Shown one piece after another: positions 18,597 to 27,832 of a stretch of 40,167 nucleotides of DNA; position 1 is the stretch's first letter; every line of letters begins with the position of its first letter. The translations under genes and the position numbers were made by a program. Source of the stretch: an uncultured Desulfobulbaceae bacterium. GTDB taxonomy: Bacteria > Desulfobacterota > Desulfobulbia > Desulfobulbales > Desulfocapsaceae. The stretch spans positions 1-40,167 of the forward strand of contig CALENA010000144.1 in assembly GCA_937910875.1 (NCBI GenBank), given 5' to 3'. The notes beneath the pieces were generated by a model. The model saw only the letters and a list, made by a program, of their open reading frames with translations. It was not told where the DNA came from and searched no databases.

Positions 18597-18992
18597 ATCA
18601 ATTCTCCTTTTTCGTACGAATTATGGTTCAGAGTTATAGAACTCATCCGACCATCGACGGGTCGGTCACTATGACAAGATTCAACACCATCATAGGGTGT
18701 ATGATATACAAACAAACACGACGGATGACAAATACTATTCACTATTTTGCACAAGCGACCTGATTTTGCTTGTAAAAGGCAATCCTCTTTCTCTAATATA
18801 CAGAGAGAATGGACATGAAACCAATCATGTCACACAGTACCCTGACAAAACAGACAAAACACCATCAGATCAGACAGATGATTTATAACAGCCATGACCC
18901 AAGACAAATAAACCCGGGACACGTCCCGGATAAAACAGGGCTGAATTTCATTCAAAATCATCTTTTCGACAACTTTGCCACAGACAGGTATC
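18597..18992. other. Divergent control region between skp and glgP
   Basis: These 396 bases have no supported gene. They are AT-richer than the flanking genes and hold the skp ribosome-binding site (minus) and a candidate promoter for glgP at 18770-18799. Short open frames here, such as the one from 18809, overlap no recognisable motif and were not accepted. Confidence 0.6.
18770..18799 (+). promoter_or_regulatory. Candidate sigma70-type promoter for glgP
   Basis: TTGTAA and TAATAT are separated by 18 bases, about 190 bases upstream of the glgP start codon. Box quality and spacing are reasonable. It would leave a long untranslated leader. Confidence 0.4.
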
Positions 18993-21203
18993 ATGCATAC
19001 TCTCTATAAAGACAGCAACAGTCCTCGCATCGAACCGCAGGAACTGATCAGCAGCAATCCCTTTGGCACCTTTTTCGGAGTTTCCCAGGCTGTCCTTGAC
19101 CAGGTCTGGGGGCAGCTCACCCATGAAAACGGGAATTCAGTTGCCTATATCAGCATGGAGATCGGCGCTGATCCTGATGTCTGCAATCCGGTCAAGGATC
19201 TGCTGGGCGATCTCCCTGTGGCTGACATATCAGACCCCCAACTGCTTTCATTCATTGAAAAACTGCGCAAGGGGCCGGAAAAAATACCCAACTACAGCGG
19301 AGGACTCGGCGTCCTGGCCGGGGATACCCTGAAGAGTTTTGCAGACTGTCATATCCCGGTAGCCGCAGTCAGCCTTTTTTATCGGCACGGCTATTTTTCC
19401 CAGTATGTCGACTCACTGCTCGGCCAAATATCACAACAGGTTTCCTGGAAGCCAGAGAAAACTCACGGTCTTTACCTGCTCCAGGACCCGGACCATCCCG
19501 ACCAGCCCCTCACCATCGATGTCCCCTTTATCAACGAACACAATCAGGACAGCCTGGCCCAGGCCCAGGTGTGGATGAAGATGGAGATCAGCCAGCAGCT
19601 GGATTTTTTTGTCCCGGAATTCCTCCTCGATTTTCATCTGCCAGGCTCACCCGAACTGATCAAAAAAGCAGCGCGGCAGCTCTACAATGCCGAATCAACG
19701 ATCATCAAGGCCGTCCAACGACGGATGCTGGGCACAGGAATCCTCCCCTTGCTTGACACCCTGGGCCTCACCGCCAAGACCATTCACCTCAACGAACAGC
19801 ACGGGGTCAGCGTAGTCCTGCAACTCATCAGCCAGGAGTTGCGCCAGGAGTTGAACGGTCAGTCTCTGACCTCAGCCACCGACCAGCAGATTCTGGCCGC
19901 AGCCGACCGGGTGGCCCAGCATGTGGTTTACACCATCCACACCCCGGTCAAAGCAGGCCATGATCGCTTTGACAAGGGGATGTATGCCGGAATCAGCCGC
20001 TCATCCTGCCAGCACCTGCTGAACCTTCTGGCCCGCGATGACGACAGCCCGCACAGCTACAATTTCACCACCCTGGCCATGCAGGTCAACCGGGCCACCA
20101 ACAGCGTCAGCCGTCTGCACCGTGACGTGACCCGCAAACAATTTCCTCAATTTGCCCACAAGATCAGCGCCATCACCAACGGCGTCCACCATCCGACCTG
20201 GATCAGCAACAACCGGGCCCGGGTTTTTGACGATTTCGAGGAACTCCGCAACTGGCGACATGACCCTGGCGTCATGCGCCAAAGCGAACAACTCAAGGAC
20301 CAGCCCCGCTTTCGCAATCGCCTGCTCCAGGCCTGGCAGGACGACACCTCCCGCCTCTACCACCTGGTCAACCAGATGCTGATGGAGCACCGCAACCAAC
20401 GACAAAAGACCTGGATCGACCCGCCGAATTTCTACTCCTCACTGATCGACACGCACAACCGGCTGACTCCGGATACTTTTACCATCGGCTTTGCCCGCCG
20501 TTTTTCCACTTACAAACGGGCTGACCTGATCTTTGATGACATGGACACCCTCTGTGAAATCCTGATCGAAAATAACTGGCCGGTCAATTTTCTCTTTGCC
20601 GGCAAGGCCCATCCAGCCGATGAGCCCGGCAAGACCCTGATCAAAATGATCCTTGACAGCCAGGAGGAACTCTACCGCAAGAGTCGGGGACTGGCCAATC
20701 TGATTTTTATCCCCAATTACGACATGAAACTGGCCAAGATCATGGTGGCGGGCGTCCATGCCTGGCTGAACAGTCCAAAACGCCCTCTCGAGGCCTCGGG
20801 GACCAGCGGCATGAAAGCAGCCTTGAACGGAGTGCCCAATATCTCAATCATGGATGGATGGTGGGTTGAAGGCTATCATGAGGGGGCCACGGGCTGGAAA
20901 TTCGGCCATGAAGGACCAGTGGAAGAGGCCTGCCTCAGTGAAGACCCCTCGACCCTGCTCTACAAGGAAGACTCGGCGGCCTTCTATCAGCTGCTCCCGG
21001 AAATTCTGGCAGGCTTTTATACCGGCTCATCCCCTGAACTGTTTCTCGACAAGGCGGCCATGAATCTGGCCCTGAACATCCCGATCTTCAACACGCACCG
21101 GATGACTGCCGAATACCTCCAACGCTATCGGCTTTCGCTGCCCCGAGAACAGGAAAAAATCATGCTCCGACACAGCAGCTGCTATGACAGCAACAGACAA
21201 TAA
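18993..21203 (+). CDS. glgP: Alpha-glucan (glycogen) phosphorylase
   Basis: GlgP releases glucose 1-phosphate from glycogen or maltodextrin with a pyridoxal-phosphate cofactor. The 736-aa protein shows VAYISMEIGADP, PNYSGGLGVLAGDTLKSFAD, HLNEQHG in place of the usual HLNEGH, ITNGVHHPTW, TIGFARRFSTYKRADL, and the PLP lysine Lys608 in GTSGMKAALNG. It resembles the bacterial short TIGR02094-type phosphorylases more than the E. coli MalP type. The start at 18993 (MHTLYKD) uses an ATG 4 bases after CAGG; a TTG six codons upstream is less likely. It stands alone. Glycogen storage is the implied role. Confidence 0.93.
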   Translation: MHTLYKDSNSPRIEPQELISSNPFGTFFGVSQAVLDQVWGQLTHENGNSVAYISMEIGADPDVCNPVKDLLGDLPVADISDPQLLSFIEKLRKGPEKIPNYSGGLGVLAGDTLKSFADCHIPVAAVSLFYRHGYFSQYVDSLLGQISQQVSWKPEKTHGLYLLQDPDHPDQPLTIDVPFINEHNQDSLAQAQVWMKMEISQQLDFFVPEFLLDFHLPGSPELIKKAARQLYNAESTIIKAVQRRMLGTGILPLLDTLGLTAKTIHLNEQHGVSVVLQLISQELRQELNGQSLTSATDQQILAAADRVAQHVVYTIHTPVKAGHDRFDKGMYAGISRSSCQHLLNLLARDDDSPHSYNFTTLAMQVNRATNSVSRLHRDVTRKQFPQFAHKISAITNGVHHPTWISNNRARVFDDFEELRNWRHDPGVMRQSEQLKDQPRFRNRLLQAWQDDTSRLYHLVNQMLMEHRNQRQKTWIDPPNFYSSLIDTHNRLTPDTFTIGFARRFSTYKRADLIFDDMDTLCEILIENNWPVNFLFAGKAHPADEPGKTLIKMILDSQEELYRKSRGLANLIFIPNYDMKLAKIMVAGVHAWLNSPKRPLEASGTSGMKAALNGVPNISIMDGWWVEGYHEGATGWKFGHEGPVEEACLSEDPSTLLYKEDSAAFYQLLPEILAGFYTGSSPELFLDKAAMNLALNIPIFNTHRMTAEYLQRYRLSLPREQEKIMLRHSSCYDSNRQ

Positions 21204-21543: not shown

Positions 21544-21969
21544 ATGGCCAAAATGCATATCAGCCCCAACAACGCCACAGACAAGACCATTCGCTCCATT
21601 GACCGCAAGCGGGAACAGGAAAGGCGTTTCATGATGAAAAAGGCGCGAGAAAACGCCGACGAACTCGTTTCCAAGCTCGTTCAACGCCTGATCGATCGCG
21701 AACTGGTCGAGACCACCTCGGTGCTCGACCTGCGCGAGGCCTTTGTCAACCAGCTGAATCAGCTCAGTTCCCTTGAAGAATTTGATGTCCAGCTCAAGGT
21801 AGCCCCAATCCGTACTCTGGTGCAGGACGCCAATATCGTCACCCTGTATCTGACTCAGTACATCATCGAAGACCTGATCAACCATCCGGCCATCCTCGAT
21901 ATCTTTGGCGAAGATCTCGAGATTTACCTGGCCACTGATTCAGTTTTCAAAGTCCTGCGTCCGCAGTGA
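21544..21969 (+). CDS. Uncharacterised 141-aa protein coupled to a radical SAM gene
   Basis: I do not recognise this family. The protein is soluble and mostly helical. It has a basic N-terminus (DRKREQERRFMMKKARENADELVSKLVQRLIDRELVETTSVLDL) followed by a more acidic, hydrophobic C-terminal half (LTQYIIEDLINHPAILDIFGEDLEIYLATDSVFKVLRP). There are no cysteines, no signal peptide and no membrane segment. A good GGAGAG site precedes the ATG. The stop overlaps the GTG start of the radical SAM gene (GTGA), so the two are translationally coupled and probably act together. It could be a small partner or substrate-delivery subunit, which is inference from linkage only. Confidence 0.8.
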   Translation: MAKMHISPNNATDKTIRSIDRKREQERRFMMKKARENADELVSKLVQRLIDRELVETTSVLDLREAFVNQLNQLSSLEEFDVQLKVAPIRTLVQDANIVTLYLTQYIIEDLINHPAILDIFGEDLEIYLATDSVFKVLRPQ

Positions 21970-23300
21970 GTCATCCGGACGAACTCCCAGTCCTGCTCTT
22001 TGCCGATCCCAGTGGTAAAATAATCGATTTCCCTGGCCTCAAGGCCGCCGGCATGAGCGCCGGGTCCTTTGTTCAACCCCAGCGCGAGGATTTCATTCCT
22101 TTGCCCGAGGGAAGTGAACTTTTTGTCCTCCCCAGCCGACTCCCGGTGGGCTGTGATCCGGAAAGCGGCGAACCATTGCTGCTGGCAACCAACCCCTATC
22201 AACCCGAGCAGCCTCTCCAGGCGGTGGCCGCCTTCATGTCTCCGGCCCATACCGCAATCTATACCAGCCCCTACCAGACATCAGGCCCCGAGGCCCCACG
22301 CCTGCCCCTCTTTGCCTACACGGCGGTGGGCTGGCACGACAACCGTTTCTGGGCCACGGCCTTTCGCAGTGATCCGGACCCGCGCCAGGACAGCAACCAG
22401 TTCAGCCAAGCCCAGATCACCAAAAAAACCCGCAAGCAACTGGTAAAATACAAACGGAACCGCCTGATCCAGCATTTGGGAAAATGCTGCCTGACCTATG
22501 GTTGCCCAGCTGCCCGCAACTATTTTCTCGGCCGCTGGGAGGCCCCCCTGCCCACCTCGCCGACCTGCAATGCCCGCTGTCTGGGCTGTATCTCACTCCA
22601 ACCTTCCGGCTGCTGTCCCTCAACCCAGGACCGGATTCGTTTTGTCCCCAGCCCCCAGGAACTAGCCGAAATTGCCATCCCGCATCTGGAGAACGCTGAA
22701 CGGCCCATTGTCAGCTTCGGTCAAGGCTGCGAGGGTGAACCCCTGCTCCAGGCCGAGGTTATTGAAAAAGCCATCCTCCTGATCCGGAGCAAGACTCAAA
22801 ACGGGACCATCAATCTCAACTCCAACTCCAGTCGCCCGGACAAGGTCGCCCGCCTGGCTGCAGCCGGGCTCAACAGCCTGCGGGTCAGCCTCAACTCCTG
22901 CCAGGAAGAATATTACCAGAACTATTACCGGCCCAGCGACTACAGTTTTGCCGATGTCAAGGAGTCGATCAAGGTCATGAAAGGGGCCGGTGGCTTTGTC
23001 TCTCTCAATTACTTTATCCTCCCGGGGGTCACAGATTCCCCGCAGGAATTTCAGTCACTCTGTGACCTGATCGCCACCTGCAACCCCGACCTGATCCAAC
23101 TCCGCAACCTGAACATGGACCCGGAATGGTATCTGGAGGGAATCAAGTTCAAAACGACGGAAAGGCCTATGGGCATGCGTCCCTGGCTGTCCCGACTTAG
23201 AGAACTTTTCCCATCTTTACGCCTCGGCTATTTCAATCCATTTCTTGGCAAAGAAGGCCATGAAAAGTCACCTCAAATACCAATGTCAGGGAAATCCTGA
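21966..23300 (+). CDS. Radical SAM protein of unknown substrate
   Basis: The protein is 444 aa with a GTG start. A ~165-residue N-terminal region without an assigned family precedes a Lys-rich linker and a GKCCLTYGCPAARNY segment. The radical SAM cluster follows at Cys201, Cys205 and Cys208 (CNARCLGC, the classic CX3CX2C). It continues with ISLQPSGCCPSTQDRI, a glycine-rich SAM-binding SFGQGCEGEPLL, and SSRPDKVARLAAAGLNSLRVSLNS. Extra cysteines at GKCC, YGC and SGCC could bind an auxiliary cluster. It overlaps the 141-aa gene upstream. The nearest style is deltaproteobacterial radical SAM proteins of unknown function. The reaction is not inferable. Confidence 0.85.
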   Translation: MSHPDELPVLLFADPSGKIIDFPGLKAAGMSAGSFVQPQREDFIPLPEGSELFVLPSRLPVGCDPESGEPLLLATNPYQPEQPLQAVAAFMSPAHTAIYTSPYQTSGPEAPRLPLFAYTAVGWHDNRFWATAFRSDPDPRQDSNQFSQAQITKKTRKQLVKYKRNRLIQHLGKCCLTYGCPAARNYFLGRWEAPLPTSPTCNARCLGCISLQPSGCCPSTQDRIRFVPSPQELAEIAIPHLENAERPIVSFGQGCEGEPLLQAEVIEKAILLIRSKTQNGTINLNSNSSRPDKVARLAAAGLNSLRVSLNSCQEEYYQNYYRPSDYSFADVKESIKVMKGAGGFVSLNYFILPGVTDSPQEFQSLCDLIATCNPDLIQLRNLNMDPEWYLEGIKFKTTERPMGMRPWLSRLRELFPSLRLGYFNPFLGKEGHEKSPQIPMSGKS

Positions 23301-23413: not shown

Positions 23414-23830
23414 ATGGAAACATCCACGAACATGAGAATCACCACCCAGCGTCAGGTCATCCTTGAAGAGCTGGCCAAGGTTACCTCACATCCCACTGCC
23501 AATGAAGTCTATGACATGGTCCGCAGGCGGCTACCCCGAATCGGCTTGGGCACGGTCTACCGCAATCTTGACCTGATGGCCGAATCTGGAATGATCCTCA
23601 AAATCGAGGTGGGCGGGACCCAGAAACGCTTCGATGCGACCACGACCCCGCATTACCATATCCGCTGTCTTGAATGCGGGCGCGTCAACGATATCGACAT
23701 GGACTTTCAATCAGAGATTAATGATGCGGCAGCCGATGCCAGCCATTACCAGATATTCAGCCACCACATCGAATTCACTGGTGTCTGCCCCATGTGCGCC
23801 AAACAAGAACGCCACGCCTTGGCCAACTGA
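23414..23830 (+). CDS. Fur-family transcriptional regulator (PerR-like)
   Basis: This 138-aa protein has an N-terminal winged helix (RITTQRQVILEELAKVTSHPTANEVYDMVRRRLPRIGLGTVYRNLDLMAESG) and a dimerisation/metal domain. The latter has the HYHIRCLECGRV site and a second CPMC pair, which together give the structural Zn(Cys)4 site. The FDATTTPHYH loop is typical of PerR/Fur. Metal specificity (Fe, Mn or peroxide sensing) cannot be fixed from this. The first ATG, at 23414, was used; ATG 23432 (MRITTQR) is equally possible. It is a single gene with a likely operator upstream and a perfect hairpin terminator downstream. Confidence 0.9.
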   Translation: METSTNMRITTQRQVILEELAKVTSHPTANEVYDMVRRRLPRIGLGTVYRNLDLMAESGMILKIEVGGTQKRFDATTTPHYHIRCLECGRVNDIDMDFQSEINDAAADASHYQIFSHHIEFTGVCPMCAKQERHALAN

Positions 23831-27599: not shown

Positions 27600-27832
27600 A
27601 AATCCCCCACCCTGCCGTGTCGTCAGAATGATTAAACCTATGTAATAGGTGGGCAAAACTCATATCCCCGTCTGGAAATTCGCATGCGATTCTCCTTCTA
27701 GAGAAAGTGGAGATGCCCTTTTTGTGAGAGTTGGCTCAACACGCTGTCGATCACCAACAGGACAGGGGAAAAACATTCTCCAACAAGAGACTTATCAGAT
27801 TTTCTCCCAAACAACATCACAACATGAAACAA

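Follow-up and report, generated by a model that had tools for sequence, protein, structure and literature searches.

An uncharacterised, widely distributed radical SAM enzyme family with order-specific linkage to a small, probably DUF507-like protein

Two overlapping genes at positions 21544-23300 of the window (the whole stretch of DNA analysed, 40,167 nucleotides) raise the question of whether they form an enzyme system, as the initial annotation had proposed. The window is a contig of an assembly that is 92% complete and comprises 192 contigs. It comes from a sulfur-cycling bacterium whose named relatives put it within or close to Desulfobulbales, the order referred to below. The first gene encodes a small helical protein and the second a radical SAM protein, here termed rSAM. 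As had been claimed, both open reading frames are real and overlap in the sequence GTGA at 21966-21969, where the GTG start of rSAM overlaps the stop codon of the upstream small gene. A carbohydrate phosphorylase gene (18975-21203) lies upstream of the pair and a Fur-type regulator gene (23414-23830) lies downstream. Elsewhere in the window, a 6S/SsrS RNA is found at 27600-27771 on the minus strand (61.5 bits; gathering cut-off, 46.4). The features considered below are:

21544..21969, plus strand: gene for the small helical protein; open reading frame of 141 aa with an ATG start
21966..23300, plus strand: rSAM (radical SAM) gene; open reading frame of 444 aa with a GTG start, PF04055
21966..22400, plus strand: N-terminal all-beta acidic domain, residues 1-145; from DSSP of the model, family-restricted in the genomes searched
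22485..22505, plus strand: C174-X5-C180, candidate auxiliary-cluster ligands upstream of the SAM motif; invariant in 125/125 orthologues
22566..22589, plus strand: SAM-cluster motif C201-X3-C205-X2-C208; read directly, conserved in 125/125 orthologues
22713..22742, plus strand: SFGQGCEGEP, residues 250-259, with the invariant C255; G252-E258 conserved in 125/125 orthologues

By sequence and predicted fold, rSAM is a member of the radical SAM superfamily: it combines a CX3CX2C motif, a Radical_SAM domain above cut-off, and a predicted partial TIM-barrel fold. Residues 196-361 match the generic Radical_SAM model (PF04055) at 62.7 bits against a cut-off of 29.5 (E 6e-17). This is the sole Pfam match to rSAM, with none within residues 1-195. 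The MoaA-type matches in NCBIfam are all sub-threshold (MoaA model, 30.9 bits against a cut-off of 284), and that collection returned no specific family model. As neither resource provides one, copies of rSAM would be annotated merely as "radical SAM protein". No paper on the family was found in the literature. The initial view that neither gene has a recognisable specific function thus holds for rSAM but less fully for the small protein, given its probable likeness to DUF507.

The rSAM family is well delimited and strongly conserved. Each of the 48 good genomes of the order carries one full-length orthologue, and the family is present in 56 of the 120 good genomes of the phylum. It occurs patchily in Bacteroidota, the phylum of Thermoflavifilum (7/198 genomes), and in 30 of the 140 genomes of the phylum that contains a metagenome-assembled genome (MAG) labelled Myxococcales; MAGs labelled KSB1, Spirochaetales and Chlamydiota, labels that may be wrong, are also among the matches listed. 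One genome collection holds at least 587 rSAM loci, and no plasmid copies were found. Between distant lineages identity remains at ~40-50%, with dozens of residues invariant. Full-length orthologues score E 1e-94 or better, compared with ~1e-7 for the next-best proteins of the same genomes, and it is this gap that sets the family apart. Domain fusions were set aside for the long frames at L211, L223 and L224, which on inspection look like upstream open-frame extensions rather than domains; long frames also occur in L257-L261.

Within the order, linkage of the two genes is real. Both are present in 55 of the 58 genomes searched and lie within 300 bp of each other in 46 of these 55, the usual spacing being 0-50 bp; in five more genomes they are 0.5-2.3 kb apart, and in four they are widely separated or lie on different contigs. 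The pair shares a strand in all 62 loci compared, and the small protein is conserved in 47 of the 48 good genomes. Beyond the order the linkage is not seen. Homologues are detected by a profile of the small protein in 22 of 148 genomes of the phylum, and the protein is not detectable in 42 of the 62 rSAM genomes of the phylum panel. Outside the order, all 14 rSAM genomes that have the small protein carry it unlinked, and ten rSAM genomes of other lineages gave no match to it. The conserved pairing sought across Desulfobacterota is therefore found in the order itself; elsewhere the genes are unlinked or the small protein is absent. Thus rSAM does not depend on this linkage. This family is an uncharacterised, widespread and strongly conserved one, with order-specific linkage to the small protein and without an obligate two-gene system.

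What, then, does the linkage mean? One explanation is that the pairing reflects order-level synteny or shared transcription of proteins with unrelated roles. Consistent with this, the phosphorylase, Fur and TyrS genes are also syntenic around the pair in many of the same genomes, and the small protein occurs unlinked elsewhere. However, the pair persists where the genes for Fur, phosphorylase and TyrS escape detection, and co-occurrence in the panel exceeds chance (Fisher p 4e-7, or 4e-5 without the order), with the caveat that these values are uncorrected for relatedness, which inflates such statistics. Synteny without a shared function is a possible explanation, though less likely than not.

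The same data bear on a dedicated two-protein system in Desulfobulbales, in which the small protein would be a partner, chaperone or substrate of rSAM. Such a system would account for the tight, same-strand spacing in 46 of 55 genomes, for its retention where the other neighbours are missing from view, and for the presence of rSAM in 20 of the 22 panel genomes that encode the small protein, the co-occurrence being subject to the relatedness caveat above. Against it, the small protein is missing from the majority of rSAM genomes outside the order and is unlinked in the others; two genomes have the small protein without rSAM; and rSAM is strongly conserved even where the small protein is missing. 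The enzyme system initially proposed thus survives as a conserved pair within the order and is not supported as a two-component system in general, and a dedicated system confined to Desulfobulbales is unlikely.

The small protein itself is, as first described, free of cysteine and helical: the AlphaFold model is all-helical except for two short strands (mean pLDDT 89.8). No Pfam model matches it, the cut-off for DUF507 (PF04368) not being reached, and a sequence search of the PDB returned nothing credible. Its top PDB alignment is to DUF507 (8t8k; Z 6.6 over 94 residues at 2.9 Å, which is low for helical proteins), pairing residues 29-137 with DUF507 residues 1-135. Globin and phycobilisome folds were also matched and were set aside as low-Z helical look-alikes. 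Four homologues outside the order match PF04368 above cut-off. In one longer homologue that was checked, residues 102-175 match model positions 103-176, in the same register as in the 8t8k alignment. About half of this match falls in a C-terminal extension absent from the window protein, making kinship with DUF507 probable rather than proven, and direct comparison of the small protein with DUF507 by hhalign is weak (probability 6.8%). The small protein probably adopts a DUF507-like fold, differing from DUF507 in having no C-terminal arm and no Pfam score. The function of DUF507 (PF04368; 8t8k) is not known (PMC10439177).

Outside the order, the small protein occurs in diverse surroundings: next to recJ and a beta-lactamase-fold gene, next to etf genes and an FmdB-like zinc ribbon, or next to a kdtA-like gene (the last two assigned by eye). 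At four loci (L145, L146, L152 and L155; families f47/f63), etfB, etfA, a ~180-aa protein, an FmdB-like zinc ribbon and a DUF507-like protein are encoded in a run, the etf genes being absent from the stretch shown for L155; no Pfam model matches the ~180-aa protein, as tested in L145. In many Desulfobacterota (loci L156-L180), DUF507 is present as two tandem genes or as a double-length protein; the tandem arrangement mirrors the internal repeat described for Aquifex DUF507. Genomes that have DUF507 without a match to the small protein tend to lack rSAM (p 0.009, uncorrected for relatedness).

The CX3CX2C motif of rSAM reads C201-N-A-R-C205-L-G-C208, at the residues originally given, and is conserved in all 125 orthologues compared. 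Six cysteines are invariant in this set: C174, C180, C201, C205, C208 and C255. The initial annotation had suggested that extra cysteines in GKCC, YGC and SGCC could hold an auxiliary cluster. Here, C174 of GKCC and C180 of YGC are fully conserved, while C175 (48%) varies. SGCC is not a conserved feature, because C216 is retained in 43% and C217 in 59% of orthologues; C312, C366 and C372 are likewise not invariant. The reader had overlooked C255, which sits in the SAM-binding GGE-type motif; this motif aligns to ...AGPGEP of NifB. The informative set is thus C174, C180 and C255, and the conservation pattern is compatible with a second cluster.

The AlphaFold model of rSAM (pLDDT 94.7) is all-beta to residue 134, followed by helices and then the barrel. 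A fold search returned 122 PDB matches at E<=0.001, those listed being radical SAM enzymes. Among solved structures NifB (6y1x) comes nearest, with Z 16.4 over 213 residues; BlsE, PFL-activating enzyme and lipoyl synthase are close behind at Z 14-15, and RlmN and TYW1 are also among the matches. The N-terminal region, described from the outset as unassigned, remains so: a profile of the domain found no sequence in the PDB, and the search of 58 related genomes gave no stand-alone copy and no other convincing protein. The domain is acidic (median pI 4.8), and the segment that follows it, residues 146-195, is basic (median pI 9.9).

Outside the order, the genes around rSAM vary from lineage to lineage, and almost no family recurs among 64 co-directional neighbours. 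Because these neighbours share nothing, rSAM appears to work alone; because they differ by lineage, they point to no pathway. In one lineage (L257, L258, L262 and L276), rSAM follows NusB-, PyrF- and SpoU/RlmB-like genes, as judged by eye. A stand-alone, conserved, housekeeping-like gene of this kind could encode an enzyme that modifies tRNA or rRNA. The scattered occurrence of LysS, HflX, RsmE, PrmA and RtcB as neighbours, together with the SpoU/RlmB-like gene of that lineage, would fit such a role, as would the basic segment at residues 146-195 and the fold matches to RlmN and TYW1. However, translation and RNA genes make up only a few of the 64 neighbours, and the N-terminal domain is acidic. 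We regard modification of RNA by rSAM as improbable, though worth retaining among the alternatives.

Comparison with characterised enzymes defines what rSAM shares with NifB and where it departs from it. Both have the radical SAM barrel (6y1x, 7jmb, 7bi7) and an LPxxPxCNxxC sequence leading into the SAM motif, and profile comparison with NifB of the same order gives a probability of 97% over residues 194-378. C180 of rSAM precedes the first SAM-cluster cysteine by 21 residues, and C30 of NifB precedes its own by 20. The K1 ligands of NifB include C30, H43, C63 and C129 (PMC7145814). When the K1 and K2 ligands were sought in rSAM, C180, the counterpart of C30, was the sole conserved one: H43, C63 and C129 have no conserved equivalents, and the C-terminal cysteine triad of K2 is missing. 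Conversely, rSAM has an additional acidic beta domain and the invariant C174 and C255. The NifB model TIGR01290 is absent from the NCBIfam matches to rSAM up to E 1. As the other NifB ligands are not conserved, rSAM shares the NifB scaffold but is not NifB. A nitrogenase role is also unlikely, in that true nifB is a separate gene, passing TIGR01290 in the same genome, and many rSAM genomes have no nifB at all.

Lipoyl synthase resembles rSAM in fold (LipA/LIAS, Z ~14), and LipA has cysteines before its SAM motif. Unlike LipA, rSAM has two invariant upstream cysteines only, and its distribution is not complementary to that of LipA. NCBIfam gave no LipA (TIGR00510) match to the window rSAM, and TIGR00510 found no match at E<=1e-60 in the rSAM-encoding genome itself. 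A role as LipA substitute is unlikely, there being no anti-correlation (41/62 against 49/86, p 0.31). MoaA, TYW1, BlsE and RlmN share the core barrel and SAM motif, and rSAM matches the profiles of MoaA and BlsE weakly; the MoaA, BlsE and TYW1 models nevertheless score rSAM far below their family cut-offs. Carbide or sulfur insertion of the NifB or LipA type, which the best fold and profile match, the C180 spacing and the upstream cysteines would favour, is very unlikely given the missing NifB ligands and triad, the separate nifB gene and a distribution that does not follow that of LipA.

The preferred explanation, to which, taken as a whole, we give an even chance, is that rSAM represents a radical SAM enzyme family that is stand-alone and as yet uncharacterised. 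The superfamily motif and the predicted fold are strong grounds for 5'-deoxyadenosyl-radical chemistry: a [4Fe-4S] cluster on C201, C205 and C208 would bind SAM and cleave it reductively, yielding the radical. The radical would act on one conserved substrate, whose presumed site lies between the barrel and the N-terminal, acidic beta domain. Because that domain is acidic, the substrate is somewhat more likely to be a small metabolite or a protein than RNA, although a nucleic acid would fit the basic segment at residues 146-195. C174, C180 and C255 would hold a putative second Fe-S cluster close to the active site, which would anchor the substrate or accept an electron; the likelihood of this second cluster and its role is about evenly balanced. 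The family does not require the small DUF507-like protein. In Desulfobulbales this protein is probably co-transcribed with rSAM and may assist it, or may share its regulation only. A more ambitious form of this explanation, in which a multi-phylum family with a private beta domain uses a novel C174/C180/C255 auxiliary cluster for a new reaction, with a DUF507-like accessory in one order, falls short of an even chance but is a possibility that we entertain.

Radical SAM enzymes that are so conserved and stand-alone usually perform a fixed, important reaction. For rSAM, the invariant cysteine within the GGE-type motif provides a direct, testable handle on mechanism, and the order-specific link to rSAM places a DUF507-like protein in a genetic context.
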